Origin: Cupriavidus necator
GTDB taxonomy: Bacteria > Pseudomonadota > Gammaproteobacteria > Burkholderiales > Burkholderiaceae
Assembly: GCA_022041995.1 (NCBI GenBank)
Contig: CP074381.1
Coordinates: 186,001 to 250,000 of the forward strand
DNA: 64,000 nucleotides
Reading direction: 5' to 3'
Positions 1 to 28,986 of this stretch are shown here, one piece after another. The notes under the pieces are model-generated. The model was not told the DNA's origin, ran no database searches, and saw nothing but the letters and a program-made list of their open reading frames with translations. Position numbers and translations under genes: made by a program. Numbering within the stretch: the first letter of the stretch is position 1; every line of letters starts with the position of its first letter.

Positions 1-245
1 TTGAGGCCTATCGTCAAATCATGGCAGATGTTGAGTTGGCGAAGAGGTCCAACAAACTGCGCAAACGACGCTACGCCGCACAGATGGAGCTCGACAAGGA
101 CGGCCATCAGCGCCAATGCAAACCGGCTGCAAACGAATCACTACCTGCTGCTCAGTCCACCCTTTTTGATTTCGAGTCACCGCCGCCGCCGCCGCTCGAG
201 ATCCGGCCTCGGACCCTTCGCGCCATTCCAGGAGATCAATCATGA
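1..245 (+). CDS. tniA: C-terminal tail of TniA/TnsB-type DDE transposase (partial)
   Basis: The reading frame enters from the left edge (codons start at base 3) and ends at 245, giving about 80 residues. The fragment is basic and coiled early (AKRSNKLRKRRYAAQ) and ends in a proline-rich, unstructured tail. Such a tail fits the extreme C-terminus of TniA/TnsB transposases, which contacts the ATPase partner. The catalytic core is not in the window, so identity rests on the overlapping tniB start at 242 and the tni gene order. The stop overlaps the next start as ATGA, implying translational coupling. Confidence 0.7.
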   Translation, partial: EAYRQIMADVELAKRSNKLRKRRYAAQMELDKDGHQRQCKPAANESLPAAQSTLFDFESPPPPPLEIRPRTLRAIPGDQS

Positions 246-1174
246 ATGCATTGAGTGAATTCTCTCTTCGCCATCAGTTCATTAAGACGTCTCAAGTATC
301 TTGGGCTTTCGATCGGCTGAGTGAGGTGCATCACGATGTCCTTAGCTCGCGAAGCAGTCGAGGGCTTATGGTGCTTGGGCCAAGCGGGGCCGGCAAAACC
401 ACAACCGTAAGGGAGTACCTGAACACGGCATTTCCGCAGGTGTGTGTTCCCGGAAAATCATGTCGAGCGGTGCACGTGGAGATTCCGGCTTCGCCGACGC
501 AGAAATCTCTCGCGACGTCGATATTGATTGGTCTTGGCGATCCTTTCGCAACAGCTCAGAGGCACCCCGCAGAACTGAAGATGGCCCGCGTCGCGACGCT
601 TCTTCGGAATTTGCACACCGAAGTTTTAGTTCTCGACGAGGCGCAGCATCTTGTCGACTACAAGCGAAGCAGCACCTACGACGCCGCCGATTGGCTCAAG
701 AATCTGATGAATAGTTCCGAAGTCACCGTCGTTCTTGTTGGGCTGAAGCGTGCTCGTCAACTGCTTTGGGCTAACGAGCAGTTGCGAAGAAGGTTCTCTG
801 CCATCGTCGAACTTGAGCGATTCGGTTGGGCAACGATTGAGGACCAACGGCGATTTGCTTCCTTGGTATCCAGCATCGGGAGGATATTGCCCGTCCCAAC
901 CGTTGACCTCACAGAGGGTGATACGTTGCACCGTCTTTATCACGCCAGCTTTGGCTTAATGGACTACCTGATCAAAAGTCTGGATCGTGCTGTATGGGCT
1001 GTTCGGAGCGGCCACGCAAGGGGTATCGATCGCGCAGTTCTCGCGCGTGCGTTTCGCGACGAGGTTTGGGCTGACGTACCTAAGAATAGGAACCCGTTTG
1101 CCGAAGAGTTTACTTTCACTCCGTTGATCGGAATTCACGAGCCCTTCGAAAACTTCGATATCACTTTGCGCTAG
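242..1174 (+). CDS. tniB: TniB/TnsC-like AAA+ ATPase of the transposition module
   Basis: A 310-residue AAA+ ATPase. Walker A is GPSGAGKTTT near residues 46-55 and Walker B is EVLVLDEAQHL near 127-137. The sensor/arginine-finger region follows (NEQLRRRFSAIVEL). The length is normal for TniB proteins. In Tn5053/Tn7-type systems this ATPase assembles on target DNA, recruits the DDE transposase and answers to TniQ. Its start overlaps the transposase stop, and tniQ begins about 70 bp downstream, so the genes form one operon. ExeA-like ATPases are related, but the neighbours make TniB much more likely. Confidence 0.9.
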   Translation: MNALSEFSLRHQFIKTSQVSWAFDRLSEVHHDVLSSRSSRGLMVLGPSGAGKTTTVREYLNTAFPQVCVPGKSCRAVHVEIPASPTQKSLATSILIGLGDPFATAQRHPAELKMARVATLLRNLHTEVLVLDEAQHLVDYKRSSTYDAADWLKNLMNSSEVTVVLVGLKRARQLLWANEQLRRRFSAIVELERFGWATIEDQRRFASLVSSIGRILPVPTVDLTEGDTLHRLYHASFGLMDYLIKSLDRAVWAVRSGHARGIDRAVLARAFRDEVWADVPKNRNPFAEEFTFTPLIGIHEPFENFDITLR

Positions 1175-1242
1175 CCCGCGCGGCCCGGTGTAAGCGCTGG
1201 GCCGCATCTGCATACTACATCCCATGGAGAACAATTCATCTT

Positions 1243-2244
1243 ATGTTTTGCCTGACCAGAGCGAAGGGGACATCTCAGGTTCCGCAGCCCGACGCAACAC
1301 TAGCGGGTGGGCGCGACGTTCGTCAGTGGTCGACACCATCTGTACCTCCGCCCGTTCAAGTCTCTCCCTATCCCTACGAGAGCTTTGAGAGTCTTATGTT
1401 CCGGGTGGCGGAGTGCAACGCCTTGGGCTCTGCTAGAGGCGCGCTCCGAGCGCTTGGTGCGCAATTTCCGAGACCGTCGCGCTATTGCTATAAGTATCTT
1501 AGTCCGTTACTTGGTATTGAACCTGCCACGTTGGCAGCGATAGTACCCACAGCAGTTGATGGGGACCTTCATATCCTGGGGCACCAACTTCTGCGTGACC
1601 GCCACATTGTTCGTCACGCCAGTCGTTTTTGCCCGATGTGTGTCTCGGAGCGCGGTTATGGTGCACTGGAATGGGGCCTTGCTCCGTATGCTGTCTGTGC
1701 CGAGCACGGTATCTACCTGGTTGACCGCTGTGCCTGCAATCCGCGGAGGTCTCTGAACATGTTTTTTCGCCACAGATACTTCACATGTGTATGTGGGGCC
1801 GACCTTCGCAACGCCGCTGTGGTTCCTGCAAGCTCTGCCGCATGCAAACTTGCCAAGGAGATTCGGCGACGATTTCGGCAGGAACCGGATCAACAGTTGG
1901 ATAGCGTGTTCCCGATATTGAATACGTGGCCCGAAGACGCGCATTTTGGCGATTTTCTCGACTTGATGATATGCCTTGGCAGCCTCGCGCGCGAGTCTAG
2001 AGCGATTAGCTCTCACCTCAGACAGGCGGTGTATCGCTTGGACCGGGTCACAGTTCAGTTTGAGAACGCGGCCGATGTTCTTTCGAGCTGGCGAGGTGGT
2101 TTCGCGTCGGCCTTTCGCATTGCTAACCCCACCGTCTACGCGTCAAGGGGTACATCGGATAAGAAGTTCCGGTTGCTTCGGGCAAGGGCGAAACGGTATC
2201 TACCGCCATTGGTGTATCGATGGCTGGCCCTTCAGCGAATATAG
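1243..2244 (+). CDS. tniQ: Short TniQ-family target-selection protein
   Basis: A 333-residue protein with the TniQ layout. A helical segment (YPYESFESLMFRVAECN) is followed by zinc-binding clusters: CPMC near residue 129, then a C..H pair (CAEHGIYLVDRC) and CVCG. TniQ proteins bridge the ATPase complex and the target site. The first 40 or so residues before the TniQ fold look unconserved, so the true start may be a little downstream. The gene ends only 32 bp before a second, longer tniQ. A diverged copy of its last codons plus the intergenic stretch recurs near 30.2 kb. Confidence 0.88.
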   Translation: MFCLTRAKGTSQVPQPDATLAGGRDVRQWSTPSVPPPVQVSPYPYESFESLMFRVAECNALGSARGALRALGAQFPRPSRYCYKYLSPLLGIEPATLAAIVPTAVDGDLHILGHQLLRDRHIVRHASRFCPMCVSERGYGALEWGLAPYAVCAEHGIYLVDRCACNPRRSLNMFFRHRYFTCVCGADLRNAAVVPASSAACKLAKEIRRRFRQEPDQQLDSVFPILNTWPEDAHFGDFLDLMICLGSLARESRAISSHLRQAVYRLDRVTVQFENAADVLSSWRGGFASAFRIANPTVYASRGTSDKKFRLLRARAKRYLPPLVYRWLALQRI

Positions 2245-2276
2245 ATAGCAGCAGGCTCTTTTGAGCGAGGTCGAGC

Positions 2277-4097
2277 ATGCTGAATCTTCCTGTAGTCCCA
2301 GCTCCTTTCGAAGACGAAGACTTGCTCGGCTTCCTCGCCAGGTGCGCGAACTCTAACGCGCTTACAGTCGCCGAGCTTGTAAGAGCGTTTCGATCAGCCT
2401 CCCAGACTGCTATGAGGTCCCAGTTTCGGGAAGTGGAGCTCCCGTTGATTTGGGGTAACCAATTCGACGAACTCCTGCATCCGAGCACCCGTCCCGCAAG
2501 GGCCTGGACTCATCGGAACCGCAAGTTTTGTCCCCACTGCATGATTGAGGCCGGATACTGGCGAGCAAGTTGGTGTTTGATGCTTGCGACTTGTTGCCCT
2601 CGCCATGGCATTTGGCTTCAAGAGCGTTGCGGCAGCTGTGGCACAACTCTTAGCATCGAAGCAATGCGATGCTTCCGGTGTGACGCCTGCGGTAAGTCGC
2701 TTGTGGACGCTGACTCAGCCGTCCAGCCGGCTGGACGGGAAGCGCTCTGGATCGTCCAGCAACTCACCCTTCGGGTCGCTCGGTCAGGTGAGCGTAGCGA
2801 CCACATTACCGGTGACTTGACGTTGTCCGAGTTCCATGAACTCGCTTTGAGAGTTGGCGTTCGCGGGAGCATTGTCAACACCAACAAGCCTCTCAAATTG
2901 AAGGAGGCCGGCGCACTGACGGTTGCAATACCCATTGCCGAGGGGGCCGGCAGGGCGCTGATGAATTGGCCGTATGGGTTCGAGGACATGCTCGGTGCAA
3001 TACGCGAGAAGCGACGCAACGCTTCCAGCTGGAAGATGCGCGAAGCCATGGGGCCGATTTATTGGGATATCTATCACTATCTCAAAGGTCCACGCTTTGA
3101 ATTCGTACGGACGGCTTTCGAGTCATACGTCCGCGATCATTGGGAGGCACCGATAGCATGTCGCAATAGAAACATCGGGCTACCACTCGTTCGAAACCAC
3201 ACTTGGGTGGCCGTATGCGAAGCAGCCAAGAGAAGTGGTGTAGAACCAGCGCTGCTCAAGCGTATGGCAAAGGGGCGAGAGATACCGACACGCGAGCAAA
3301 CACACAAAAGCGGTAGATGTACTCGAATCGTGAATCTTGCCTCGGTGGGCGACTATGCCGGTCGAGTGCAACAGGCGATGTCCGCTGAGCAAGCTGCGAC
3401 ACATCTCGGAATCAGTCGCAAGCGCATTCGGCAACTTCTGGATGCTGGTTTGCTGGCTGTGCTTGGTGGTACTCCCAGGGCGGGGCAACGATGGTGGATT
3501 GATCCGAGATCCTTGGACCGATGTGCGCATTCTGGGCGGAAAATGGCAACTGAGCCGAAAAACTCGGTCTCAGTGACGCAGCTTGCGAAATACACCATCG
3601 CAAGCGCCGAGAGCTTTGTGTCGCTGATTAGTGCTATCCAGACTGGGGAGTTGCCCGTCTGGGTCCCTCCAGGTTCCAAGCAAGAAATAGGGAAATGGCG
3701 CCTCAGGAAGGACAACCTGGTGAAATGGCGAGCTGTTACGGAAGAAGTTCGTGCATCGAGGCTTTCCGTCGACGATGTAGCTGTGCAGCTTGGCGTAAAG
3801 CAGGAGGTCGCCTACGCGCTGGTCCGAGCGAAGCTCGTGCCAGCCACTATTGACAGCGCCGGTCGGCGTGTTGCCCAGTGGGTAGATATCCATGCACTGA
3901 GTGAGTTCCGGGAGCAATATATTCTGGGCACTGAGTTGGCCGCCCTGGCAAGAACGAGCCCGAAACAGATGGCCCAGCGGTTGAAGGCATGCGGTATTCA
4001 ACCTATCGCTGGGCCCGCCTCTGCGCCAATCTTTTGCCGGCAGTATGTTTGGCAGCGGACTCCAGGCGTTCTCTCTGCCGCCGTGGCGGAGACGTGA
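2277..4097 (+). CDS. Long TniQ/TnsD-like protein with C-terminal helix-turn-helix repeats
   Basis: A 606-residue protein. The first ~150 residues are TniQ-like, with zinc clusters CPHC (near residue 84), CPRHG, CGSCG and CDACG. The C-terminal half contains several excisionase/MerR-like winged HTH units, for example SAEQAATHLGISRKRIRQLL and LSVDDVAVQLGVKQEVAYAL. A TniQ domain followed by an array of DNA-binding units is how TnsD-type selectors read a fixed chromosomal attachment site. Pairing with a short TniQ recalls elements that use one TniQ for a safe site and another for mobile targets. The target sequence is not known. Confidence 0.85.
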   Translation: MLNLPVVPAPFEDEDLLGFLARCANSNALTVAELVRAFRSASQTAMRSQFREVELPLIWGNQFDELLHPSTRPARAWTHRNRKFCPHCMIEAGYWRASWCLMLATCCPRHGIWLQERCGSCGTTLSIEAMRCFRCDACGKSLVDADSAVQPAGREALWIVQQLTLRVARSGERSDHITGDLTLSEFHELALRVGVRGSIVNTNKPLKLKEAGALTVAIPIAEGAGRALMNWPYGFEDMLGAIREKRRNASSWKMREAMGPIYWDIYHYLKGPRFEFVRTAFESYVRDHWEAPIACRNRNIGLPLVRNHTWVAVCEAAKRSGVEPALLKRMAKGREIPTREQTHKSGRCTRIVNLASVGDYAGRVQQAMSAEQAATHLGISRKRIRQLLDAGLLAVLGGTPRAGQRWWIDPRSLDRCAHSGRKMATEPKNSVSVTQLAKYTIASAESFVSLISAIQTGELPVWVPPGSKQEIGKWRLRKDNLVKWRAVTEEVRASRLSVDDVAVQLGVKQEVAYALVRAKLVPATIDSAGRRVAQWVDIHALSEFREQYILGTELAALARTSPKQMAQRLKACGIQPIAGPASAPIFCRQYVWQRTPGVLSAAVAET

Positions 4098-4360: not shown

Positions 4361-5293
4361 TCATTCGGACCGTCCGTTCCTCAGTTGTCGGGGTGGCTCG
4401 AACCCGAACCTGCGCCGCCATGGCCTGATCCTTTGGCACAAAGGCATCGGTAGCCCCTCCGGGGACAAGGCAAATGCCATAGTTGGGTCACCATGCAAGA
4501 TAGGCGGAATGACCCGAGCAATCAGCCGATGCAATGCGCGATCCCCGGTCACGACCGCTGGGGTGCCCACAAAGCGATAGCCTTGCTGCCGCAGCAGGGG
4601 GAGGCCGAGCCACAGATTGAGGTCACCTGCACGGTTTCGCAGATAGGGAACATTGATGTGGTCTGTCTCGTCCTTCCGCCCAGGCTGGAAGGCAAGAAAC
4701 GAGTCGAGGTACGAAAATGCGGGCTTCAAGTCGTCAGCGAGTTTGAGGGACTGGCTACCCTTGAGCAAGGTCCCCAATGCCGTCAGCATCATGGCCGACG
4801 TGAATCGCGGGATATCGTGCTGCGCCATAGCTTCCAGTCGCAGCAACGCTTGTTGAGCGGGGAGTCTTTCCGTCAGCAGCGACTTCATAATCGCGATGTA
4901 GGGAATGATCAAGCTGAATTGCGTGCGCAATGCCTCATCGTTCCTGCGCAGCAAGCCCTCCTGCTGCTGCGCAAATTGAGCGCGGAACGGCGCTCCCAGC
5001 TTCGCCAGATTTTCGATCATGGCTTTGATGCGATCCGTAGTCGATTCCCGGAATTGCGGGTTAGAGAGCCACTGCTCCTGCAGCGCAGGCCAAGGGTTGA
5101 TCACGCACTTCGCTCGAATCTCCTCGGGCAACTGCACGAACCACTGCACGTTGCTGAGAGCGTTGGTGTCCAAGAAGAGTTCGTAAGGGCCGGCGCCTTT
5201 CTCGGCGTTCAAAAACGGCCACACGATGGCGGTACCGCTGCTGGTGCGAATACACCGCTCAGCGTAAGGCACCGGTTGGTTGAGGATTTGCAT
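4361..5293 (-). CDS. PIN-like domain protein, function unknown
   Basis: A 310-residue protein. The N-terminus has ELFLDTNALSN (residues ~40-50), the typical first acidic motif of PIN nucleases. A later TGDRALHRL resembles the second acidic patch, and an intervening Glu (PALQEQWL) could be the third ligand. PIN domains are metal-dependent RNases, but this protein is twice the size of a VapC toxin and no antitoxin is adjacent. It lies 85 bp downstream of the dioxygenase gene on the same strand, probably in one transcript. The start at 5293 follows an AT-rich leader with no clear Shine-Dalgarno. Confidence 0.6.
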   Translation of the reverse strand: MQILNQPVPYAERCIRTSSGTAIVWPFLNAEKGAGPYELFLDTNALSNVQWFVQLPEEIRAKCVINPWPALQEQWLSNPQFRESTTDRIKAMIENLAKLGAPFRAQFAQQQEGLLRRNDEALRTQFSLIIPYIAIMKSLLTERLPAQQALLRLEAMAQHDIPRFTSAMMLTALGTLLKGSQSLKLADDLKPAFSYLDSFLAFQPGRKDETDHINVPYLRNRAGDLNLWLGLPLLRQQGYRFVGTPAVVTGDRALHRLIARVIPPILHGDPTMAFALSPEGLPMPLCQRIRPWRRRFGFEPPRQLRNGRSE

Positions 5294-5378
5294 GCACAGT
5301 GTGTTTTTTATTTCTTAGGATAGTGATCTGACTGCGATGCTTTGGTCGCTCTGCTACCAGGTGTTCCCACGGGCAGTG

Positions 5379-6413
5379 CTACGGGAATAGGACGTGCGGC
5401 GGGGAACCACCGAGGTGGCGCTTGTGCACCGCAAGGTTTGAGGTGTCGAGGGCGTATGCGCGCAGGAGCCACCGTGACTGGCCTCCGACGTCCTCGCCAA
5501 CCTCTCCCCGGCCGTGTAGGCTCAGCCGGTTGTTGATGATGAGGATGTCGCCCGCCTGCACCACGACCGGCACGGCAATCTGGTTGCAAGCCGCCTCTAG
5601 ATTGTTGGAGGCCTGCTCTGCCAGTCCGCCGGGTTCGGACGGAACGACAGTGCTATGACTGTAGCGCACGTACGTGCCGCCGGCGACGTCCTTCAAAATC
5701 GGTTCATCGACGACCACCAGCTCTTTCCCCAAGATGCGCTTCATGCCCTGCACAAATGTCTTCTGGGAGCGAATCGAGTACTGCGGCTTCTTGAGTTCAT
5801 CAACGTCACCAAGCGGCAGGGTGGCAAGCGCGTCCGCCAGCGGCATCAATTTCGTCGGAACGTTCTTAGGGTTGCGCAGACCCACGAGAGTCACCAGGTC
5901 AGGCGAAGGGGCAATGCGCACGTCTTTGGCATCGTCTTCACCGTTCAACGGGAAACTCACGCCATCCGTGTGGCCGCGCATGCCTTTCTTGGATTTCTCA
6001 GCGAAGGCGCCATCCCCCGGCATTGCCACGAGGTTTACGAACTGGTTGCCGTCATTCTCAGTGGCGTAGGAGACCGTCTCCAGGTTCAGCACGCCATGCA
6101 CGGCGAGCACTGCCGCCCTGGCCGCCATCGTGCCCGCCGTGTCGGGCACGGGAAAGAATCCCAGGGGCGTATCGCCCAAGTCAGCGGCGTCGAAGACCTG
6201 CTGCAGATGACGATACGGGGCTTGACCCACGAATCCTCGGGCAACGGCCGATGTATGGCCACCGAGTACCAAATTGCACTGTACTGCCGCACCCAGCATC
6301 GCACTCAGGGTAGCGGGATTTGCCATCTCGGCTTTCCGCTGGTCCAGTTCGGTGGTCTGCATCCAGTGGTCGACCGCTGCCCTGACGGCCGTGGCGAGGT
6401 CCGTCTCCGTCAT
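5379..6413 (-). CDS. TauD/clavaminate-synthase-like 2OG-Fe(II) dioxygenase
   Basis: A 344-residue protein with the facial triad of 2-oxoglutarate/Fe(II) oxygenases. An HxD sits in RGHTDGVSF (near residue 148), and a distal His sits in NNRLSLHGRGEVG (near 298) with the nearby Arg expected to bind 2-oxoglutarate. The overall look is closest to TauD/L-asparagine oxygenase/clavaminate synthase proteins. The substrate cannot be told from sequence. A good ribosome site (GGAGGA) precedes the start at 6413. The gene is divergent from the RHH/ImmA-helicase pair across only 91 bp, so the two transcripts may share control. An oxygenase within defence-type cargo is unusual. Confidence 0.75.
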   Translation of the reverse strand: MTETDLATAVRAAVDHWMQTTELDQRKAEMANPATLSAMLGAAVQCNLVLGGHTSAVARGFVGQAPYRHLQQVFDAADLGDTPLGFFPVPDTAGTMAARAAVLAVHGVLNLETVSYATENDGNQFVNLVAMPGDGAFAEKSKKGMRGHTDGVSFPLNGEDDAKDVRIAPSPDLVTLVGLRNPKNVPTKLMPLADALATLPLGDVDELKKPQYSIRSQKTFVQGMKRILGKELVVVDEPILKDVAGGTYVRYSHSTVVPSEPGGLAEQASNNLEAACNQIAVPVVVQAGDILIINNRLSLHGRGEVGEDVGGQSRWLLRAYALDTSNLAVHKRHLGGSPPHVLFP

Positions 6414-6429
6414 AGGCTTCCTCCCGGGG

Positions 6430-6449
6430 TTGATATATTATTGATACAT
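6430..6449. promoter_or_regulatory. Tandem TTGATAYAT operator between divergent genes
   Basis: Two near-identical 9-mers, TTGATATAT (6430-6438) and TTGATACAT (6441-6449), lie 11 bp apart in the 91-bp divergent interval. One-turn spacing of direct half-sites is typical of ribbon-helix-helix repressors. The adjacent plus-strand gene encodes RHH-like segments, so autoregulation is a reasonable inference. The first repeat could also serve as a -35 hexamer. Confidence 0.4.
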
Positions 6450-6504
6450 GCCTACACTGATGTCAAGGGGCGACCATTCGCCCGCCATGCGATGGAGAGC
6501 GTCA

Positions 6505-7542
6505 ATGAATCCCGCTCACGACCCTGTCGGCCTTTCAGAGGGACGAGCACTGCTAGCCCGACTGCCAAACCTGTACCTTGCCGCCATTAAGAGTACCCAA
6601 CTTGAATATCGAGGTGGGAGCGAGGTGCGCTGCTCATTTGACCTCCCCTCGTTAGGCAAGCGGACTAAGTCAGCACCTACTGCAAGAGAAGCCATCCGCG
6701 CCATCCTCATTGAGCTCTCTGATGCTTTGACCCGTATGCCACTTCATGAATGGCCGAACGATTCGGGCCGACACTGCTGGTCTGCCACACCTCCGATGGA
6801 AAGTGCATCGGTGTTGGAAGGCGAGACGGCCGAGCGATTTCAGTCAAAGGCTCGCCAGTTCACCATCGGGGTCACGTTGCCAGTAACACTGAAGAAGTCT
6901 TTGAACGGACTGGCAGAGCAGCAAAGCACAAGCTTTGCGGACGTGGCTCGCCAATTGGTAGCTGTGGGGTATGACGACTTCGACGATAGGTCGTTCTCGG
7001 AAGGGTCGGCAGGACTGCTTTCCAAGTTTGTTTCCGAGGTTGAAAAATGGCTTCCCTCGGACACGGAGCAGGTAATGCTCAGGCTAGATCCATCCTTGGC
7101 AATACGCCTTCGTTCTAGCGCCAAGGAGTACAGGAAGTCTGCATCCGAATTTGGAGCAATGTGCTTGGCACACGGTCTTCTTCTGCAGACTCAGTTAGTT
7201 CAGCTCGAGCAGAAGATCGCAGCATATCGCGGTGCTGCTGTTCGCAAACTTGCTCCACAGGTGGGTCTCGGAACTCAGGCAGCTCTGCTTTCAGGAGTAC
7301 TTGCGGGTTCCATCCGTACACCAAAGAAGGTATTGAGTCGTCTCAGTGAAGTTTTTGAAGCTACAGAGCTTGCCTTGACTGAGTTCTTCAAGCGTTCCTT
7401 TGAGAGTCGCACTGTGCCAGCGTTCAAGGCCGAGAGGGGGAAGCCTTACGTTTCTCCCTCTGCGACATCTTGGGAGGACGCGGTCAAGTCGTTGAACTTG
7501 CCAGCGGATCAAGCCAGGGAACTTCTCCAGCTCGACGAGTAA
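6505..7542 (+). CDS. Ribbon-helix-helix / HTH regulator paired with the ImmA-helicase fusion
   Basis: The start at 6505 is preceded by GGAGAG at good spacing, giving 345 residues; upstream in-frame ATGs exist from 6448. Two segments look like ribbon-helix-helix units: FTIGVTLPVTLKKSLNGLA with the helix ending RQLVAVGYDDF, and VMLRLDPSLAIRLRSSAKEY. The C-terminal third (AALLSGVLAGSIRTPKKVLS onward) resembles DNA-binding partners seen before ImmA/IrrE peptidases. The next gene starts 4 bp after the stop, so the two are co-translated. By analogy with ImmR-ImmA pairs, this may be a repressor cleaved by the downstream peptidase; that is an inference. Confidence 0.6.
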   Translation: MNPAHDPVGLSEGRALLARLPNLYLAAIKSTQLEYRGGSEVRCSFDLPSLGKRTKSAPTAREAIRAILIELSDALTRMPLHEWPNDSGRHCWSATPPMESASVLEGETAERFQSKARQFTIGVTLPVTLKKSLNGLAEQQSTSFADVARQLVAVGYDDFDDRSFSEGSAGLLSKFVSEVEKWLPSDTEQVMLRLDPSLAIRLRSSAKEYRKSASEFGAMCLAHGLLLQTQLVQLEQKIAAYRGAAVRKLAPQVGLGTQAALLSGVLAGSIRTPKKVLSRLSEVFEATELALTEFFKRSFESRTVPAFKAERGKPYVSPSATSWEDAVKSLNLPADQARELLQLDE

Positions 7543-7546
7543 AGTC

Positions 7547-10500
7547 ATGAACCCATTCCAACGTGCGCGAGACGAAGCAAAAGCAACACGAGAAAAACTT
7601 GCCCCAGGAATGGCTGACACTGCCATTCCGGCAAAGAACCTTCTCGGTGCTGTCGAGGACGAGCTCGGCTTGGCTATCGAGCCCGTTGACCCGTCATACC
7701 CAGACCTCGGTGACGGTAGCGCAGTCCTGCAGCGTGAGCAGTTGTTCATTTATGTCAGCAACGAAATCCCGTTGTGGGGCGATATGTTCTGTGGCCTCGT
7801 TGCCCACGAACTCGGTCACTGGTTCCTTGACGCCACCAAAGCTCCATCGACGGTTGCTCATCTGAAGACTCTCTTTGGAAGTGACGGTTCGCCTGCCGTC
7901 ATGAAGGTGGAGGCGTACGGAGCCCGTGAGCGACAGGAGCTTCAAGCGAACGTCTACGCCAGAGAACTGCTGCTGCCACGCGACCTAGCGCGCAAGCTTG
8001 CGTTTAGTGGTGTGGGCCCAAGCAAGGTAGCTAAGGACCTTGGCATTCCACTGGAGTTTGCTCGTCAGCAGATGCTTGATGCGCTGCTGCTGCCAGACGC
8101 ACAGTCCACTACCAGCGTGCTGAATCCTCCGAGTCCCGACCAGCGCGCAGCCGCACGTGCCGAAGAGCGTGCTGCCAACGTAGTTGCCGGACCTGGAACA
8201 GGCAAGACGTCGACGCTCATCCACCGGGTCAAGTACCTCGTCGAAGAGAAGAAGGTCGAACCGAGCCAGATTCTCGTCCTGACGTTCACCAACAAAGCTG
8301 CTTTCGAACTCGTCGAGCGTCTGCGCGGCGCGGGCATCGACCGAGCGGCTGACATTTGGGCTGGCACTTTCCACGCATTCGGGCTTGAGTTCCTCCGCAA
8401 GTTCCACCAACGGTTCAAGCTGGAGCCCGACCTGCGAGTGGCCGATCGTCTAACGTCGATGACAATGCTCGCTGCGGGACTGCCGCAGCTGGATTTGAAC
8501 TACTACCTGCGGGTAGAGGACCCTTACGACTGGCTCAGCCCCGTCATCGAGGGTATCAAGCGCCTCAAAGAGGAGCTCGTTTCTCCTGACGCCTACCGCG
8601 AGTACGTCACAAAGCATCCGGCGGAGGATGCGGAGCTCCAACGCCGCCGAGAGGATGTGGCGACGCTCTATGAGGCGCATGAGGGGCTCCTGGCGCAGAG
8701 TCGGGCGGTTGACTTCGTTGATCTCATTTCAAAGCCGGCTCTGGCACTGAAGGCGGACCGCGCGCCGTTCACTGAGCTAGCCGATAGGTTTCAGTACATC
8801 CTTGTCGACGAGTATCAGGACGTCACCCAGGCAATGGTGGAGCTGTTGAGGCAGTTGGCGCAGAAAGCGAAGTCCATCTGGGTCGTGGGTGACGTTCGCC
8901 AAGCCATCCATCACTGGCGTGGCGCTTCGCTCAAGAGCTTGTTGAAGTTCGACGCCGAGTTCAAGGTGCACGCGGGTGGCACGAAGATTCAGCGCTACCC
9001 ACTCGACACCAACCGTCGCAGTGCCAAGGAAATTCTTGAGCTGGTGCAAGAGGTTGGTCGTCAGCACAAGCTCGAGGCCAGCATGCCGCTTGACAAGATG
9101 TCAGCGGCCAAAAGTGCCTGCGGCGAATTGCCCAAGGTCGTTACCTGCGCCAAGCGGGACGAACTCCTAAGCGCGGTCGTCGACAATATCGTCGCTCTGC
9201 AAAGAGCTGAGGTCCATTTCGGCCGCCAAGCTGTCTTGTGCAGAAACGGCAGCGATGTTCAGCAAGCGGCGGAGGTGCTCGCCTCCCGAGGGATTCCCGT
9301 CATCTACATTGGAGAGTTAGCTCAGCGGCCAGAGGTCAAGCGCCTACTTTGCTTGATGCAGCTTCTTGTGGAACGGCAGCCTCGAGCACTGTTGGGCCTG
9401 GTGGATGTTGCTGGATACGCGATGCCGGTGGCCGACATTCAGCGACTGCTGGAGGCAGCGAACGACGACGTGGCGTACCAGCGAGGTAGGTGGCTGGATG
9501 ACCCGCCACCGGGCCTTTCCGCGCCGGGCATGGGTGTCATCGCTAAGCTGAGTGAGCTGCTGAACGGGCGTCGCCACAGCTCCAACCCCTGGGCCTTCGT
9601 TTGCGACTTGCTGCTGGAGCATCACTTCTGCCGGCCAGCTTATGCAGACAAGTCCGTGAGCGCATGGGTGCAGCGCATCGCGCTGTGGCAATTTGCGTAC
9701 GCCGTTCGCAATGGGGACGGCGAAATGAAGGAGGCACGCCTATCGCGGTTCCTTATGCGTCAGCGCTTGCGGCAGCGCATCGGTGAAAGCTTCGTCGACC
9801 GCGAGCTACCACCCGAAGCCGGTGCTCTCGATGGCGTCCGACTTCTAACGGTGCATGGAAGCAAGGGGCTTGAGTTCGACGCGGTCCATGTGGCCTACGT
9901 CAACGCAAGCAGCTACGGCGCACAAGCGCCCACGTGGGTGCCACCGGAAAACGTGCTGGACATCGTTCCTCCGGAAGCGCTTGGCAGCAGCCAGGACGAG
10001 TACGACGTTGAATCTGCGGTCGAGCGAAACAATTTGCTGTACGTCGCGGTCTCGCGAGCCAGGCGCCATCTCTACATCTATCAGGAGAACGAGTTCGGCG
10101 ACGACACGCTCGCCCCGCAGCTCCAGCACTTCCCTCGCAAGTTCACCCCGGTTCGGTACAGCGGCTCGGCTATCAGGGTGGCTGCCGTGGCACCACACCG
10201 GGCATTCACGCCGCCAGGCGTCGTGAAGTTTGAGCACTTCGACACCTATGCGATGTGCTCGCTTCAGTATTGGTACTCGCAGGTCATGGGGCTCACGAGC
10301 GAAGCTGACATCGACATTTCCCTGCGAGCGCGTTGGGCAGTCATGAGCGCCTTGAAGGCGGTGGCCTCAGGCGAGCCCGGTGCGCCGGACGCGCAACTGC
10401 TTTCGGCGTGGGCAGAGCAAAAGCTTCCGTCCGACATTGCGGACCCTTCCCTTTGGCGAGACGCGACCTTCGCGTTCTCGCGAGGCCTTGACCTCATGCG

Positions 10501-10897
10501 CATGATTCTTGAAGAAGGCGGCCTATTTGCCGAACCCACCGCCGTCGTCGGCGGGGTAACCGTTCAGATGCCATGGGGCTTTGTCATCAAGGGGCCCTAC
10601 GCCACCGAGTTCGCGATGATGCGGTTCACACGTCGCCGCGTGTCGGATATGAAGACAGTGTTGAAGCCCATAATTCCCGGTCTAGACCTTCCCGGAACGA
10701 AGAAGCTGACTCTCAACCATGTGCTCTCCGACAAGGTCGACGACGTGCCAGGTGGGAAGAGGTTAGAGGCGACCAAGTCGTTCAAGGCAGCTGTCCGAAT
10801 GCTCGCGGGCGACACCCGACCTACGAAAGGTCGACACTGCGGCCGATGCGCCTACATGACCATCTGCCCGTCGGCACCGAGCTTGTCGCAATGCTGA
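7547..10897 (+). CDS. ImmA/IrrE peptidase - UvrD helicase - AddB-like nuclease fusion
   Basis: 1116 residues. Residues 1-150 are an ImmA/IrrE-type zinc peptidase: HELGH at 87-91, with the third-ligand region QELQANVYARELLLP near 130-144. An SF1A UvrD/PcrA helicase follows, with Walker A GPGTGKT (215-221), LVDEYQD, LDTNRRSAKEIL, VHGSKGLEFDAVH and YVAVSRARRH. The end resembles the AddB/Cas4-type PD-(D/E)XK domain with an iron-sulphur cluster: one Cys in YAMCSLQYW plus the terminal CGRCAYMTIC. I cannot find a clear nuclease acidic/Lys centre, so that part may be structural. The fusion suggests an enzyme that senses DNA ends and activates proteolysis, or the reverse. It is a strong defence candidate. 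Confidence 0.85.
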   Translation: MNPFQRARDEAKATREKLAPGMADTAIPAKNLLGAVEDELGLAIEPVDPSYPDLGDGSAVLQREQLFIYVSNEIPLWGDMFCGLVAHELGHWFLDATKAPSTVAHLKTLFGSDGSPAVMKVEAYGARERQELQANVYARELLLPRDLARKLAFSGVGPSKVAKDLGIPLEFARQQMLDALLLPDAQSTTSVLNPPSPDQRAAARAEERAANVVAGPGTGKTSTLIHRVKYLVEEKKVEPSQILVLTFTNKAAFELVERLRGAGIDRAADIWAGTFHAFGLEFLRKFHQRFKLEPDLRVADRLTSMTMLAAGLPQLDLNYYLRVEDPYDWLSPVIEGIKRLKEELVSPDAYREYVTKHPAEDAELQRRREDVATLYEAHEGLLAQSRAVDFVDLISKPALALKADRAPFTELADRFQYILVDEYQDVTQAMVELLRQLAQKAKSIWVVGDVRQAIHHWRGASLKSLLKFDAEFKVHAGGTKIQRYPLDTNRRSAKEILELVQEVGRQHKLEASMPLDKMSAAKSACGELPKVVTCAKRDELLSAVVDNIVALQRAEVHFGRQAVLCRNGSDVQQAAEVLASRGIPVIYIGELAQRPEVKRLLCLMQLLVERQPRALLGLVDVAGYAMPVADIQRLLEAANDDVAYQRGRWLDDPPPGLSAPGMGVIAKLSELLNGRRHSSNPWAFVCDLLLEHHFCRPAYADKSVSAWVQRIALWQFAYAVRNGDGEMKEARLSRFLMRQRLRQRIGESFVDRELPPEAGALDGVRLLTVHGSKGLEFDAVHVAYVNASSYGAQAPTWVPPENVLDIVPPEALGSSQDEYDVESAVERNNLLYVAVSRARRHLYIYQENEFGDDTLAPQLQHFPRKFTPVRYSGSAIRVAAVAPHRAFTPPGVVKFEHFDTYAMCSLQYWYSQVMGLTSEADIDISLRARWAVMSALKAVASGEPGAPDAQLLSAWAEQKLPSDIADPSLWRDATFAFSRGLDLMRMILEEGGLFAEPTAVVGGVTVQMPWGFVIKGPYATEFAMMRFTRRRVSDMKTVLKPIIPGLDLPGTKKLTLNHVLSDKVDDVPGGKRLEATKSFKAAVRMLAGDTRPTKGRHCGRCAYMTICPSAPSLSQC

Positions 10898-12593: not shown

Positions 12594-13343
12594 TCGACTG
12601 TGAGGCAACGGTGAGTCAGGATACTCACTACATGTACTACGTCCACTCAATTAATTATGGCAGCCCGGCTGCGAGCTCCCCTAAGAGCAGATGGCCTTGA
12701 GACGTGCTCTGTAGTCCATCGGTTCAAGTAGCAAGTTTGAGGATAGGCCGCCGCGTAGGATGAAAAGCTTTGGCAACGATGCGAAGTGGAAAACGCGATA
12801 CAGACAGAAGGCGTCCCCGGTTTCGTCTGAGAAGTCTTTCTCGTTGCGACTTACAACGAAAGGCGTGAGTGGTCCTCCGTTGGTCGTCTTGACCTCGATG
12901 AACCTCGCAAGCTCCGATGATTCGAAGGACAGGATGTCGTAGCCAGTGCCGTCTCCAAGCCGTTCGGATAGCCAGTCGATCTTTGTCGCGAGATCCGGCC
13001 TCTGTTCTTTCTCCAACCGCTCTCGTTCAAATCCGACCACCCACGCTTCGCCGCTGTGACCGAGCTTCCGATTGCGTTCGTCACGGGCCGCATAGTCATA
13101 CTTTCTTGGCAGGCGCGCGCTCTTCGGTGTTGGCTGCAGGACTTCGACGACAGGGGGTGTCACCAGTACGCTTGTGAAGAGTTGGTCGCCGGGATCCGTA
13201 GTTGACTCCAGATTATCCAAGACCGTCGACATGGGACCATCATTTGACGATATAAACTCAATGACAACCTGGCGTAACAGCTCCTGAAGATTCGTACGCG
13301 GCTTATATCTGAATCACCCCGGGAATCGAGGAGGCTGTTTTGT

Positions 13344-15300: not shown

Positions 15301-18300
15301 CTACGACTCGAATATCAACTCCGGCAAGACGACTTCCCACTGCGCAGAACGAACAGCCCGCCTGAATCCTTCATCTTCATCATCCAATCTACGGATGATG
15401 ATGGCATGCACGCGCGCAGAGACACGGGCCAATCCCAGCGGCGGGGTGTAGCCACGCGACAATCGCCCGACCACGAGTTTGGATGACGAATCCATTAATT
15501 CCCATCGGTCGGTGTCGCGCCGTACCTCGAGCGTGCTACCGGGACGCAATGCTGAGATCGCTTGATGTATGGAATGGCTTGGAGCGAGGCGACCGGAGAA
15601 GCCGAGGTCCACGTCAGCTGGGGTGAGGCGCTGATATCGTCGAGAAAGCGCAGGCATCGGTTCTGGCAGAGCCACCGGTGAGCGCTGCATTATCGCGCTC
15701 GTAGCCGGAAGCGCATCGATCAGTTTGTTGCCGCCAGCTAAGCGGCAGAGTACGAGGAGGCTTTTTGCCCTCGTTACGGCGACGTAGTACAGTCGGCGGG
15801 GCGCGTCCTGGTCCTCGTTCTTTCCAACTCTTTCCCATCCGCCGTCGAGCACCACAACATAGTCGAATTCGAGGCCTTTTGAGCTGTGCGCGGTCAAAAG
15901 GAGAAGGCCGCTCTGGCGGCGTCTGGCTTCGCGGCCCCATTCTGCCAGCCACTCAATGAAGTGGCCAGCGGGCAACTCAACTCCTGTCGTCTCCAGTTCG
16001 TACGCGTGCGCCGCCTCGCGCAGCAATTCCCACCACGGGCCGTCGGCTTGCGTGTCCAGCCAGAGGTTGATTGCATGACTGTCAATGAGCTTCCGCTCGC
16101 TGCTGCGCAGCCACGCCAGAAGGGCCTGCGTTTCACGCAACTGCCAAAACTTTGTTGCCTCGTTGTCTGCCATCTGGACTGGAATGCCGAGGTGTTCGCA
16201 GTAAGCGCGAACCGGTTCCAGGTGCCGCCATTCGCGCGCGACCACCGCGCAGTTGCTCCATTTCCAGTCAGCGTCGAGCGCGGCCAGACGTTGTAGCTCA
16301 GTGATCGCCGCCAGTGCCTGCCGAGCTGTGGACTCACCCGCAGGCAGCACCTGGACCCGGCCCTGCGCGACTGGGTCGCGTACTTCCCAGGCGTCGCCTG
16401 CCGGCAGCCGCCGCCTGGCACGGTCGATGGTAATCGGATGTTCAGCCTTCATGCGTTCGGAAGCCGGTTGGATGAGGGCGTTTGCTACATCAATGATGTT
16501 GGCGCTCGAACGGTAGTTCTCGATCAAAAACTGCGGCTTGGCCTGGTAGTCGTCTGTAAAGCGGCGAATGAATTCCACCGATGCGCCATCGAAGCTGTAG
16601 ATGTTCTGGTCGTCATCGCCTACCGCGAAGAGGGTGAGCTTGTTTTCTTCATCTTGCAAAGTACGCCCTGCAAGCGCGGAGATCAACCGGTACTGCGCTG
16701 GGCCGATGTCCTGGTACTCGTCTACGAGAATCCAGCGAAAGCCCGCCAACAGTCGCTGGCGCTGCTCGTCCGCTTCCTCCGGCGCGAGGTCGGTACCGTC
16801 AAGCAGTTTGATAGCTTGCTCCAGCACTTCCTTGAATCGGTCGTCATTGACCTTGTCGGCCTGCCCGGCAAAGCTAACGCCCGCCAGACGCATGGCCAAC
16901 GAATGGCACGTCAGAACGGTGACACCCTTAGCATCGTCACCGATTAGGCCGGCAAGACGTCGGCGTATCTCCACGGCCGCATGACGGTTATAGGCGAGAG
17001 CCAGGATACCGTTTGGATTCTCGCGCCGCACGCGGACTAGATAGGCAATGCGGTGCACCAGAACGCGCGTCTTGCCAGATCCTGGGCCGGCAAGCACCAG
17101 CACATTGGTCTGCTCCCGGTCGTCGGTGACGATTTGCTTCTGTGCCGGATTGTTGAGCGCGTCCACGATCCGCTGCCAAGAATCCGGTGTGGTCTGTCGA
17201 GATAGCTCCTTTTCCCGATTGGGCAGCCAACGCAGAAGAAAGGCGTCCCGTGTTAAGCGGAAGTAGTCGTTGGCTAGCTCATAGGCCTCCGGCATGGCGT
17301 GGAGACCGCGCTGCGCGTACTCTCCCATCACATGGATCTGCGTGACCTGTTCGTCGTAGTGCAACTGCAGAGGCGTAAAGTCTGCTTTCAGGAAGCCGCG
17401 TTTGTCCGGTTCGAGCCGGATCGTCATCGCGGGCCGGAAGACCGCCAAGCCTTTGTTCAGGCGGATGACTTCCTGCTCGTGCAGCCACAGCAGAGCGCGG
17501 TCGAGTAGCTTGGCAGGTTCCTTGACCTGTCCACACAACGCCGGGTCGGCTTCCAATGCCGACAGAAGTTTGCCCAGCGTTGTCTCTGCCAGCAGGTCTG
17601 TGCCGCGGGCTGTAGGTGACAGGCAGGAGAGAAGATGCGCAAGTAAATGTCTCGCTGCGGCCCGGCGTAGATTCGCGGTTGAGGCTAGCTTGTCCCAAGG
17701 ACGTTGGAGCTGTATCTGGATGCTCTCTGCGTCCAGCCGCCGGATACGCATGCTGCCGACGCCGTTGTCTTCCGTGCGACCGTCATTGGAGATGCTGCGC
17801 ACGAGGCGCCAGATCTTTTCCGGCAGGGCATTGGGGTGTCCTTCGTCTTTCAAATGCTGAGCCGCGCGCCTCAAATGAAGCACGGAGGGCTCGTCCTTAT
17901 GAAGGTCTGGAGCCGCTTCTTGCAGCATTTGGATCAGAGTCTGCTCCATGGACTCCGTCTCCTCCAACCGCTTTGACGAGGAGCGTTCCACGGCAGTGTG
18001 GACGAAGGCGGTCAAAGCAGTGTCATTACTGGCAATGCCCAGACGCTCGAGGTCAAAGAGGGCGCCGCGGATCTTTTCGGCGCTGAGGCCAGAAATCCCC
18101 ATCAACTCGTCTGTGGAAATGCCCGCGTCGGCGCTGGCATCCAGCAATGCCCCCACCAGGGCCATCAGCTGCTGGCGATAGGCATCGGCCAGCGGTGTTC
18201 CAGCTAGTTTCTTCGTGGCTTCGTCGAGCGAGTTCACACGCAAAGACGAGGGAAAGATTTGAACCTGGTTTTCCTCGCGGGTTAGGAGGATGGCCTCCTC

Positions 18301-20433
18301 CAGCCAGGAAATGGCGGTGCGCACGCGTGTGTCGTCAGTGGCAGAGTCGCGCTCGAAGTTCCCTTCCTGGTCTTCCGCTAGGATCTCCCCTGGCGTGGCG
18401 ACTACTTCTCCGTCGAGCCGCTTCTTGCGGTCCAGGCTGCGCAGCGAACGTAGGACGGTTTGTATTTCTACGCGTGTCAGGCGCGAACGTGCGGACATGC
18501 CAAACTGCCTCTCGACGTCGTCCACCGTGTACAGCAGCACGCAGCGAGCTGGATTGCGGTCGCGTCCCGCTCGGCCAGCTTCCTGCAAGTAGTTCTCCAG
18601 GGAGCCGGGGATGTCCGCGTGCACTACCAGTCGGACATCGGGCTTGTCGATGCCCATGCCAAAGGCATTGGTTGCAGCGATTACCCGTAGCGCGCCGTTG
18701 ATGAAGCGCTCCTGAACACTCTTCTTCGTTTCCGGCGAAAGTCCGGCATGAAAATGTTCGGCATGGATGCCTTTCTCGCGCAGGACAGCAGCCACCTCCT
18801 CCGTCTTCTTGCGCGTCGCACAGTAGACGATTGCGCCATCCTTACCGTGCGAGGGGAGAGCAGCTGCAAGTACCTTCGAGATGTGCTCGAACTTTGCCTC
18901 CGCTGTGGTGGGCACCACCGAGAAATCGAGATTAGTGCGATTAGCCCCACCGTTGAATGGCTTGAGTTCGACGCCGACCTTGTCGCGGAAGTGCCCAATG
19001 ATGTCGTCAACGACATCCGGCTTGGCGGTGGCTGTTAGGCAGAGTACCGCGGGAACGGGCCCCTGGCCGGCCTTTTCCTTAATGAAACGGCCGACGTAGC
19101 GGTAGTCCGGCCGGAAGTCATGGCCCCACTTGGAAAGGCAGTGCGCTTCGTCGAGAACCCATGCTCCAATCTCACGCTGCGCGAGTGTCTTGCGCAAGGC
19201 CCGGTTGCGCAATTGTTCGGGCGAGATGATCAAGATGCCGATGTCGCCCAGCCGGACGCGGTCCAGAACGTCGGCCCGCTCGGGCATTGAGAGAAGGCCG
19301 TTGACCGCTGCACAGCAAGTAATTCCCTTCGCTTCGAGGCCGGACACCTGATCAGCCATCAGTGCCACCAAGGGCGAGATGACTATTGTCAGCGCCCCAG
19401 TTTTGTTGAAGCGCGACAGCGCTGGGATCTGGTAGCAGATTGACTTGCCCGTGCCAGTGGGCAGGATGCCGAGTGCATGTTCGCCACGCATTGCGGCCTC
19501 GACGATGCCCCGTTGCAGTGGATTGCCGTCTTCATCGACTGGCTCCGGTCGGAATCCGGGTAATGACGGGAACCAGCGGACGAGTTCCTTGTCTGCGTTA
19601 TGGCGTAGCTGACACCATGTGCAGTCAGGGGCGTTACAGGGCGTGTCCCTAAGCAACTTGACCAGCCTACCGGCCTCCGGGAATTGGCTACGCACCCAGG
19701 GCGGCATCACGGAGTTGCCTCCTGCTACGGAAAGCCAGGCGATGGCATAAGCGAGCCCCCAACCTTCGCGCTTGGCATCTGCCACGATGCGGCTGCGATG
19801 CGTGGCGCAGCTTTCCTCCGCCAACAGACGATCGATAGCAGCAGTGGCTTCTTCGTCCGTCGGTCGAAGCGCGCGGCGTATCGAGGCAAAGAAAGCATTC
19901 AGCCCAGAACCCGGTTCGTCGGCGGTGGTGAGCCAATGCCACGCGACAAGATAGTCGGGATTGGCACTGTTAAGCTGCTGCATGGCCTGACGCTGGTCGC
20001 GGAACACCTCCAGGGTCAGCCGGGCATCCAGTTCGGGATCGTTGAGACGGCCACGTTTGAGCTGGCCATCCTGGTAATGCTTGACAAGATGGTGGTAGGG
20101 ATTGCGCGGGAAAGCCAGGGGATTGAGCCGCAATGTGTCGACCGCGGGCATGCCAAGCAGACGCAGGTTTGCGTTCGCCGCCGCCAGATGAGGGAGGTCG
20201 AACGCTATCAGGTTATGCCCGAGGAGAAACGCGCAGGTCTGCGAAAATGTATCGAGCTTTTCCAGCGCCGCCGCAAGATCCCCACGGCGATGGACTAGGA
20301 CCTCGCCCGTGTCGCCGCGGACTGCCGCAAACTGGTGAATGCGCTTATCTTCGATCCCTACTTCGAGATCGATTGATGCGCACCGTGGTGAGAAGCTGTT
20401 TTCCACTTCCGTCCTGGCTTCGTCGTCCCTCAT
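15301..20433 (-). CDS. DEDD exonuclease - RecQ-like helicase - UvrD helicase fusion
   Basis: With the ATG at 20433 (GAAGG nine bases upstream) the protein has 1710 residues. Residues ~15-200 are a DnaQ-like 3'-5' exonuclease: SIDLEVG, GHNLIAFDLPHL and LNDPELDARLTLEVF carry the acidic residues. A RecQ-type SF2 helicase follows (PTGTGKS ~327, DEAHCLSKWGHDFRPDYR ~429, YLQEAGRAGRD). From ~1100 there is an SF1 UvrD helicase (AGPGSGKTR ~1113, VDEYQDIGPAQ ~1237, HSSKGLEFDYVVV ~1517). Both helicases keep their motifs. The three-enzyme fusion would unwind and degrade DNA ends. It lies between a NYN nuclease gene and an McrA-like nuclease gene, so an anti-phage or anti-plasmid role is likely but inferred. 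Confidence 0.88.
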   Translation of the reverse strand: MRDDEARTEVENSFSPRCASIDLEVGIEDKRIHQFAAVRGDTGEVLVHRRGDLAAALEKLDTFSQTCAFLLGHNLIAFDLPHLAAANANLRLLGMPAVDTLRLNPLAFPRNPYHHLVKHYQDGQLKRGRLNDPELDARLTLEVFRDQRQAMQQLNSANPDYLVAWHWLTTADEPGSGLNAFFASIRRALRPTDEEATAAIDRLLAEESCATHRSRIVADAKREGWGLAYAIAWLSVAGGNSVMPPWVRSQFPEAGRLVKLLRDTPCNAPDCTWCQLRHNADKELVRWFPSLPGFRPEPVDEDGNPLQRGIVEAAMRGEHALGILPTGTGKSICYQIPALSRFNKTGALTIVISPLVALMADQVSGLEAKGITCCAAVNGLLSMPERADVLDRVRLGDIGILIISPEQLRNRALRKTLAQREIGAWVLDEAHCLSKWGHDFRPDYRYVGRFIKEKAGQGPVPAVLCLTATAKPDVVDDIIGHFRDKVGVELKPFNGGANRTNLDFSVVPTTAEAKFEHISKVLAAALPSHGKDGAIVYCATRKKTEEVAAVLREKGIHAEHFHAGLSPETKKSVQERFINGALRVIAATNAFGMGIDKPDVRLVVHADIPGSLENYLQEAGRAGRDRNPARCVLLYTVDDVERQFGMSARSRLTRVEIQTVLRSLRSLDRKKRLDGEVVATPGEILAEDQEGNFERDSATDDTRVRTAISWLEEAILLTREENQVQIFPSSLRVNSLDEATKKLAGTPLADAYRQQLMALVGALLDASADAGISTDELMGISGLSAEKIRGALFDLERLGIASNDTALTAFVHTAVERSSSKRLEETESMEQTLIQMLQEAAPDLHKDEPSVLHLRRAAQHLKDEGHPNALPEKIWRLVRSISNDGRTEDNGVGSMRIRRLDAESIQIQLQRPWDKLASTANLRRAAARHLLAHLLSCLSPTARGTDLLAETTLGKLLSALEADPALCGQVKEPAKLLDRALLWLHEQEVIRLNKGLAVFRPAMTIRLEPDKRGFLKADFTPLQLHYDEQVTQIHVMGEYAQRGLHAMPEAYELANDYFRLTRDAFLLRWLPNREKELSRQTTPDSWQRIVDALNNPAQKQIVTDDREQTNVLVLAGPGSGKTRVLVHRIAYLVRVRRENPNGILALAYNRHAAVEIRRRLAGLIGDDAKGVTVLTCHSLAMRLAGVSFAGQADKVNDDRFKEVLEQAIKLLDGTDLAPEEADEQRQRLLAGFRWILVDEYQDIGPAQYRLISALAGRTLQDEENKLTLFAVGDDDQNIYSFDGASVEFIRRFTDDYQAKPQFLIENYRSSANIIDVANALIQPASERMKAEHPITIDRARRRLPAGDAWEVRDPVAQGRVQVLPAGESTARQALAAITELQRLAALDADWKWSNCAVVAREWRHLEPVRAYCEHLGIPVQMADNEATKFWQLRETQALLAWLRSSERKLIDSHAINLWLDTQADGPWWELLREAAHAYELETTGVELPAGHFIEWLAEWGREARRRQSGLLLLTAHSSKGLEFDYVVVLDGGWERVGKNEDQDAPRRLYYVAVTRAKSLLVLCRLAGGNKLIDALPATSAIMQRSPVALPEPMPALSRRYQRLTPADVDLGFSGRLAPSHSIHQAISALRPGSTLEVRRDTDRWELMDSSSKLVVGRLSRGYTPPLGLARVSARVHAIIIRRLDDEDEGFRRAVRSAQWEVVLPELIFES

Positions 20434-20486
20434 AGAATTTGACCTTCGTTCGTTCTTATTTTTGCCAATTCCGGCGAATTTTCCCG

Positions 20487-28759: not shown

Positions 28760-28954
28760 ATGACAAATATTGTTGTAAACGTAACCACTATTGTTGTTCA
28801 GAACTCAGTTGTGAGTGGTCGGGAGGCCGCCATTCGCAATGATAAGCCCGCCAGCGTCGGCAACGGCAGAGATTTTTGGCAGAAGTATGAACGGCTGATT
28901 TTCTTTGCTGCTAGTTGTGTATTTCAGCTCGTGCTGAGGTATTACTTCTGGTAA
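28760..28954 (+). CDS. Small one-TM protein between retron RNA and RT, possible effector
   Basis: 64 residues, with ribosome site CGAGGT six bases before the ATG. The N-terminal half is Val/Thr/Asn-rich (MTNIVVNVTTIVVQNSVV). The C-terminus is one hydrophobic segment ending the protein (LIFFAASCVFQLVLRYYFW). It ends 32 bp before the RT start and lies in the slot where many retrons encode their toxic partner. Membrane effectors are known for some retrons, but I do not recognise this family. It could instead be part of the RNA and not translated. Confidence 0.5.
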   Translation: MTNIVVNVTTIVVQNSVVSGREAAIRNDKPASVGNGRDFWQKYERLIFFAASCVFQLVLRYYFW

Positions 28955-28986
28955 TCCCCACTTCTTTCCCCTTTTGGTCTTCTCGT

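Follow-up and report, generated by a model that had tools for sequence, protein, structure and literature searches.

What might an ImmA-type zinc peptidase be doing in the same polypeptide as a DNA helicase? This question is raised by a locus of Cupriavidus necator (contig CP074381.1 of assembly GCA_022041995.1) that we analyzed within a stretch of 64,000 nucleotides (positions 186,001 to 250,000 of the contig), hereafter the window, to which all coordinates refer unless another locus is named. The original prediction, made from the letters alone, described two genes: a fusion of the peptidase with a UvrD helicase and an AddB-like nuclease, and a regulator containing two ribbon-helix-helix (RHH) domains 4 bp upstream. 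The locus is a real, conserved cassette of three genes, and the two-gene description was therefore incomplete, as a divergently transcribed 2-oxoglutarate (2OG)/Fe(II) oxygenase gene also belongs to the conserved unit. The oxygenase (344 aa) is encoded at 5379..6413 on the minus strand, while the plus strand carries the partner gene, encoding a predicted repressor (345 aa, 6505..7542), and the gene of the ImmA-UvrD-iron-sulfur fusion (1116 aa, 7547..10897), a predicted DNA-sensing protease; the 4-bp spacing between the partner stop codon and the fusion gene was confirmed. As detailed below, this cassette is likely a version of the ImmA protease-repressor switch in which the protease is coupled to a helicase, and the oxygenase is the likely output gene.

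In the known protease-repressor pairs the peptidase is separate from any motor, which is not so here: the fusion is one intact open frame of 1116 aa and aligns over its full length with 116 relatives, which rules out the assembly artefact that the original prediction had considered as its possible origin. Conservation was scored in an alignment of 117 rows, comprising the window protein and these 116 relatives. The ImmA/M78 peptidase domain (residues 1-183; 7547..8095, plus strand) scored 23.9 bits in Pfam vs. a cut-off of 22 and contains the HELGH motif at residues 87-91 (7805-7819) as well as a likely third ligand, E131. H87, E88, H91, and E131 are invariant in 117/117 rows and also in 7/7 distant relatives, and we take these residues to have their usual metal-ligand roles. 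The superfamily 1A (SF1A) helicase core (residues 192-876; 8120..10174, plus strand) likewise has an invariant Walker lysine in the 117 rows, and its best structural fit was to UvrD (Z = 36.0), while AdnB fitted at 4.0 Å over 643 residues. It should be noted that this search employed the whole model of the fusion, so that the ImmA and C-terminal ends were hardly probed by it. The remaining portion is an AddB/Cas4-like PD-(D/E)XK-type domain (residues 892-1108; 10220..10870, plus strand) with four cysteines (C904, C1098, C1101, and C1107) that are kept in 117/117 rows and 7/7 distant relatives, a predicted iron-sulfur signature. The single protein originally described, with its peptidase motif, full UvrD-type helicase, and four-cysteine C-terminus, is indeed present. 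Comparison of the fusion with the PADLOC and NCBIfam profiles returned only general UvrD-family matches, the best in PADLOC being GajB (4.3e-56, residues 196-785), and the partner matched nothing in either collection.

Translation of the partner likely begins at 6505 rather than at 6448, because the earlier ATG falls within a promoter-like site and 6505 is preceded by a GGAG; in addition, full-length database entries mostly measure about 340-349 aa. The protein consists of an N-terminal domain, a predicted tandem RHH (residues 119-239), in agreement with the two RHH domains originally noted, and a C-terminal module (about residues 230-345; 7192..7539, plus strand) to which we return below. An FKx(2-4)KP motif is conserved in 110/112 homologs within a loop of this module encoded at about 7405-7470, and judging from this conservation the loop is a candidate cleavage region. 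A Foldseek search with the repressor gave nothing at an E of 0.001 or lower. The relaxosome chains that were matched are presumably TraY. No match to the repressor was found at 1e-3 among 50,697 phage and 72,556 plasmid records, and none of 70 viral-contig candidates proved to be a relative.

The oxygenase is assigned to its family by sequence. It matched Pfam TauD at 2.1e-6 (28.3 bits vs. a cut-off of 27) and the L-arginine hydroxylases in the PDB at 6e-13 to 6e-10, and it groups with L-arginine hydroxylase and clavaminate-synthase-like enzymes. H148-x-D150 (E in locus L038), H300, and R318 are kept in the 10 aligned oxygenase sequences and are presumably the iron and 2OG ligands. Since the alignment to the solved arginine hydroxylases spans only about residues 171-331 and is poor at 235-262, we do not assign arginine as the substrate; some relatives carry the JGI label L-asparagine oxygenase. 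PADLOC contains no model for the window enzyme, and a search of the open-licence literature found no such output chemistry. Oxygenase relatives at about 26% on one Klebsiella and one Vibrio plasmid, the two that were read, have TSUP transporters as neighbors, and we treated them as representing another context.

To what extent are the three genes inherited as a unit? Protein similarity was used to fetch 12 genome loci, of which L001-L008 contain full-length relatives (59-90% identity by tblastn), while L009-L012 were partial UvrD matches (25-39%) and are not included in the counts; in L009 and L012 there was no fusion of this kind. The divergent oxygenase (344-361 aa), the partner, and the fusion were present in 8/8 full-length loci, with the remaining neighbors varying by locus, and an additional locus (L038) has the same three genes. 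The partner originally described is thus kept beside the fusion, and the oxygenase is added to the pair. For the three proteins, the pairwise distances show correlations of 0.97, 0.97, and 0.98 (45 pairs from 10 loci), indicating that they evolve together. In lists of up to 120 entries each, 110 contigs with the fusion were at least 6 kb long, and at least 62 of them equal exactly in length a contig listed for the partner or oxygenase, with offset-length controls giving means of 0.3 and 0.2. The profile of the ImmA part detected 6/398 genomes of the phylum and 7/399 of the order at 1e-25, and 2/369 genomes of the class at 1e-12, counts that include the genome of the window itself and are based upon at most 8 candidates scored per genome. 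In the same draw of 399 order genomes, the oxygenase profile at 1e-25 identified two, which are exactly those having an oxygenase-type fusion. A Roseomonas plasmid (L045, 3205-7737) carries a broken alphaproteobacterial relative consisting of oxygenase and fusion pieces at 30-42% identity, in which we detected neither a repressor nor the operator repeat described next.

The gap between the oxygenase and partner genes contains two promoter-like sites facing in opposite directions, one for the oxygenase (TTGACA-18-AATAAT, 11/12; 6437..6466, minus strand) and one for the repressor-fusion operon (TTGATA-17-TACACT, 9/12; 6430..6458, plus strand). These were the 2 sites found in a search of 6330-6600, compared with a shuffle mean of 0.1. 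Lying over both is a candidate operator at 6430..6446, a direct repeat of TTGATA at 11-bp spacing (TTGATAYATTNTTGATA), which is found in the oxygenase-partner gap of the window, L001-L008, and L038. Even when 1 mismatch is allowed, the window contains the pattern a single time, and it was present in 0/100 shuffles. Among 42 loci searched, it was exact in L001-L008, L038, and the loci overlapping the window or L038, and in 0 of 30 others. Loci L002-L004 and L006-L008 are close to one another, so these cases are not independent, and L005, with 59% identity to the window, also has the repeat. The repeat overlaps the -10 of the oxygenase site and the -35 of the partner-operon site; a protein bound there would shut both promoters. 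With a tandem RHH predicted in the partner and the repeat conserved on promoter-like sites, this is the binding site one would propose for the repressor, although as an operator it is a candidate from sequence.

We were also interested in whether the fusion occurs in other settings. In total, 28 fusion loci were read, of which 10 are oxygenase-type, 17 are associated with ubiquitin-like Bub operons (Bub-type), and one (L015) is neither; the broken L045 is outside this count. The 18 non-oxygenase loci comprise 8 from the best 30 of 87 plasmid records, where relatives of the fusion matched at 28-37% among the 30 matches listed, and 10 from whole genomes. An E1 (ThiF) gene is present in 17 of these 18, and in 14 of the 17 a ubiquitin-like gene was either annotated or matched by profile. 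The fusion is therefore not confined to the oxygenase context, since it also occurs in Bub operons, in which a first regulator gene is followed by that of a small regulator, then by the fusion and the Bub genes. The first regulator had a sigma-4/LuxR-type helix-turn-helix above the Pfam cut-off in 2/3 tested. E1 and BUB profiles at 1e-4 had no match in 1645 open reading frames (ORFs) of the window, L001-L008, and L038, ubiquitin-like, DUF6527, and sigma-4-like profiles had no match in the same loci, and the oxygenase profile had no match in five other order genomes with Bub-type fusions. In a tree of 27 fusions (L020, whose fusion is in pieces, was left out), the 10 oxygenase-type proteins fall on one side of a 100/100 branch. 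With midpoint rooting, which served for drawing only, L014-L016 neighbor the oxygenase-type group (100/100), although the neighbor is less sure than the group itself, as the program warned of long branches meeting.

The two contexts share more than the fusion. The C-terminus of the small Bub regulator aligned with about residues 230-345 of the window partner at an hhalign probability of 97.0 (E 1.1e-10), compared with 0.4 or less for five unrelated control alignments, and hence the repressor C-terminal module is common to both. Direct profile matches of the module were obtained for 4/18 small regulators (L014-L016 and L042), and reverse matches for 3/10 partners, namely those of the window (1.6e-9), L001, and L005. 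The N-terminal halves of the partner and the small Bub regulator differ. Accordingly, the regulator head and the output vary between contexts, while the fusion and the C-terminal tail are constant, as expected if the protease binds and cuts the tail. Loci L014-L016 also contain a motif, CGATT-N12-TGCGACT, seven times in all (L014 4551 and 9334; L015 4554 and 9347; L016 4326, 4379, and 9299), and it is restricted to the region upstream of the sigma-4-like gene and the gap that precedes the output genes, a placement which suggests that the sigma-4-like regulator drives both itself and the output. Shuffles of two of these loci gave a mean of 0.02 and a largest count of 2, and as the motif was defined on the same loci this is no independent test; a loose form occurs once inside a gene of L042. 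The exceptional locus L015, on an Aquincola plasmid, has the sigma-4-like gene, small regulator, and fusion at 4647-9324 with E1 absent from the stretch, and here the motif precedes small unknown genes, possibly representing a third output.

How, then, might the cassette work? The arrangement resembles CapH+CapP, PprI(IrrE)-DdrO, and ImmA-ImmR, in each of which an M78 HExxH peptidase lies beside a DNA-binding repressor (here a predicted one) that controls nearby genes, and the analogy with ImmA-repressor pairs in the original prediction is thereby supported. ImmA cuts ImmR after a phenylalanine. For two of these pairs the trigger has been described as single-stranded DNA (ssDNA), which activates PprI to cut DdrO (PMC10904395) and CapP to cut CapH (PMC13373217), so that downstream genes are released. 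By analogy, the best fit is that the fusion would do the same job as CapP or PprI using its own motor: CapP and PprI bind ssDNA made by other enzymes, whereas the fusion carries its peptidase joined to an SF1A helicase and an iron-sulfur nuclease-like domain. A further difference is that the repressor here is a predicted tandem RHH protein and the likely output a single oxygenase. In this scheme, the repressor would occupy the TTGATA repeats and silence both promoters until the helicase and iron-sulfur domain encounter DNA ends or single strands. Such engagement may free the ImmA active site, after which the ImmA domain would cleave the repressor in its conserved C-terminal loop, and both the oxygenase and the sensor operon would be switched on. 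We consider it slightly better than an even chance that the helicase-coupled ImmA senses damaged or invading DNA, cuts the RHH repressor, and thereby switches on the oxygenase. That DNA engagement triggers proteolysis, as the original prediction had proposed, is still something we infer, and it is backed by the shared C-terminal module, the conservation of a candidate operator at the promoter of the output gene, and the swap of outputs between contexts. Defense as the outcome is favored over repair on account of the flanking defense genes. Weighing against the scheme, a shared pair of promoters was not obtained for 12 of the 15 Bub loci in which it was sought.

The strongest competing explanation is that the fusion is itself the defense effector, a helicase and perhaps nuclease that attacks or remodels invading DNA, with the peptidase and RHH protein tuning its own expression and the oxygenase being accessory. 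The helicase motor is intact, the best PADLOC matches are GajB helicases (albeit for the helicase residues only), and the neighbors are of defense type, all of which would suit such a role. Reading the nuclease motif at D1034-x-K1036, we found an acid at 1034 in 111/117 rows and at 1021 in 101/117. Position 1036 is lysine in 29/117 rows, including the window, S in 53, and T in 14; (D/E)1034-x-K1036 is present in the same number of rows (29/117), 28 of which (the window and 27 others) have an acid at 1021 and hence what may be an E1021...D1034-x-K1036 set. However, the lysine is absent from 88/117 rows and the candidate nuclease residues are not kept in the 7 distant relatives. A profile of the C-termini from both contexts yielded weak PDB matches (E 0.1 to 0.6), all three being Cas4 or AdnA-type nucleases, and the weak alignment to one solved Cas4 sets its E-x-K on R-F-x-R of the fusion; the profile of oxygenase-type C-termini alone matched no nuclease in the PDB. 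As judged from these residues, nuclease activity is not a conserved property of the fusions, while motor and peptidase are kept throughout. Of the AddB-like nuclease in the original prediction, the four iron-sulfur-type cysteines stand, whereas an active enzyme is doubtful, even though the window's own fusion could still be active. The output genes also change while the fusion stays, and in the window, L001-L008, and L038 it is the oxygenase promoter that carries the repeat; we therefore regard the effector explanation as unlikely.

A second alternative casts the oxygenase as a sensor or modifier, which would hydroxylate the repressor or fusion in response to oxygen, iron, or 2OG and so license or block cleavage. 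In all cassette loci that were read, the oxygenase accompanies the pair and shares its repeat, and its partial alignment to the arginine hydroxylases is such that its substrate could be a protein. On the other hand, this kind of fusion and C-terminal module also serves Bub-type loci that lack the oxygenase, its profile having no match in the five other order genomes with Bub-type fusions, and this alternative thus appears rather improbable. Even less can be said for a toxin-antitoxin-like unit, in which a toxic oxygenase would be bound by an RHH antitoxin that also binds DNA and is destroyed by the fusion upon DNA damage, as there is no sign of toxicity or complex formation and the HicB match is within background, making it quite improbable.

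Returning to the protease-repressor switch, the comparison of contexts would also permit a broader proposal, which we advance tentatively and with less than even confidence. The fusion may be the core of a transferable alarm module, in which a motor that reads damaged or foreign DNA is coupled to an ImmA protease on the same polypeptide, various cleavable regulators share one docking or cleavage tail, and the outputs are unrelated (ubiquitin-like conjugation or oxygenase chemistry). The regulators of this putative module would be the partner of the sigma-4-like regulator in Bub operons and the tandem-RHH repressor in the window cassette. If this is true, the oxygenase would be a hydroxylation-based effector of bacterial immunity, and, as an output lacking a PADLOC model, it would add a chemistry to those modeled there. 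Because motor and peptidase reside in one protein, the conversion of DNA damage into proteolysis is testable by single-residue knock-outs in the helicase and peptidase. The presence of the same kind of sensor before Bub operons likewise offers a way to learn when those ubiquitin-like systems are activated; Bub operons have reportedly not been shown to protect against phage (PMC13373217).

Is the cassette already known under another name? No named system with these genes was found in PADLOC, NCBIfam, or our searches of the open-licence literature, consistent with the original prediction; the Bub studies Gong 2025 and Ye 2026, which are outside that literature, may already describe the helicase fusion, perhaps counted as CapP, and earlier comparative-genomic work on prokaryotic ubiquitin-like operons may have recorded a peptidase-bearing helicase. 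Bub operons have distant relatives of the fusion and of the repressor C-terminal module at the operon head, but the window cassette lacks E1, ubiquitin-like, DUF6527, and sigma-4-like profile matches. AdnAB, AddAB, and RecBCD resemble the fusion in the SF1A helicase core and four-cysteine nuclease-like C-terminus, whereas the fusion has an N-terminal peptidase, its nuclease residues are not uniformly kept, and a second subunit is absent among its conserved neighbors. In Gabija, GajB is UvrD-like, as is the fusion helicase, and is reported to bind DNA termini (PMC10952713). However, the cassette includes an ImmA domain and an oxygenase, its conserved neighbors are the oxygenase and RHH protein, and GajA (OLD nuclease) had no PADLOC match among the neighbors scanned. 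Membership in Gabija was therefore rejected, as the helicase alone is shared despite GajB having the best PADLOC score. The cassette oxygenase shares its family and iron/2OG residues with VioC, OrfP, and clavaminate-synthase-like enzymes, but differs in being part of a cassette with predicted regulation.

With regard to the genomic setting, the cassette lies next to the Tn7-like transposition genes tniB/tnsC, tniQ, and tniQ-HTH (242..4097, plus strand), with the starts of tnsA-like and tnsB-like genes located just before the window. Given the tnsA-like, tnsB-like, tniB, and two tniQ genes upstream, the cassette is probably Tn7-like cargo. A survey of such cargo places ImmA with the toxin-antitoxin genes (295) and mentions UvrD together with Gabija (PMC8649781). 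When 66 ORFs in the flanks of relatives were scanned, the top 25 families included models for restriction-modification, DrmD, Qat, BrxH, reverse transcriptase, Avs2, and Hma; this survey has no background set. Several other genes of the window are worth recording. Between tniQ and the oxygenase, and outside the conserved cassette, is a 310-aa protein with no Pfam family (4361-5293, minus strand). A NOV_C protein (12681-13232, minus strand) matched the PADLOC candidate PDC-S36 at 3e-59 over its C-terminal positions 110-279 of 280, and a 1736-aa protein with RecQ-like and UvrD-like helicase parts (15301-22010, minus strand) overlaps a 507-aa NYN-domain gene. Further downstream are a reverse transcriptase (28915-30171, plus strand; RVT_1 7.4e-14) and three consecutive ORFs (41014-44260, plus strand) that by eye resemble tyrosine recombinases, as in recombinase-trio elements.

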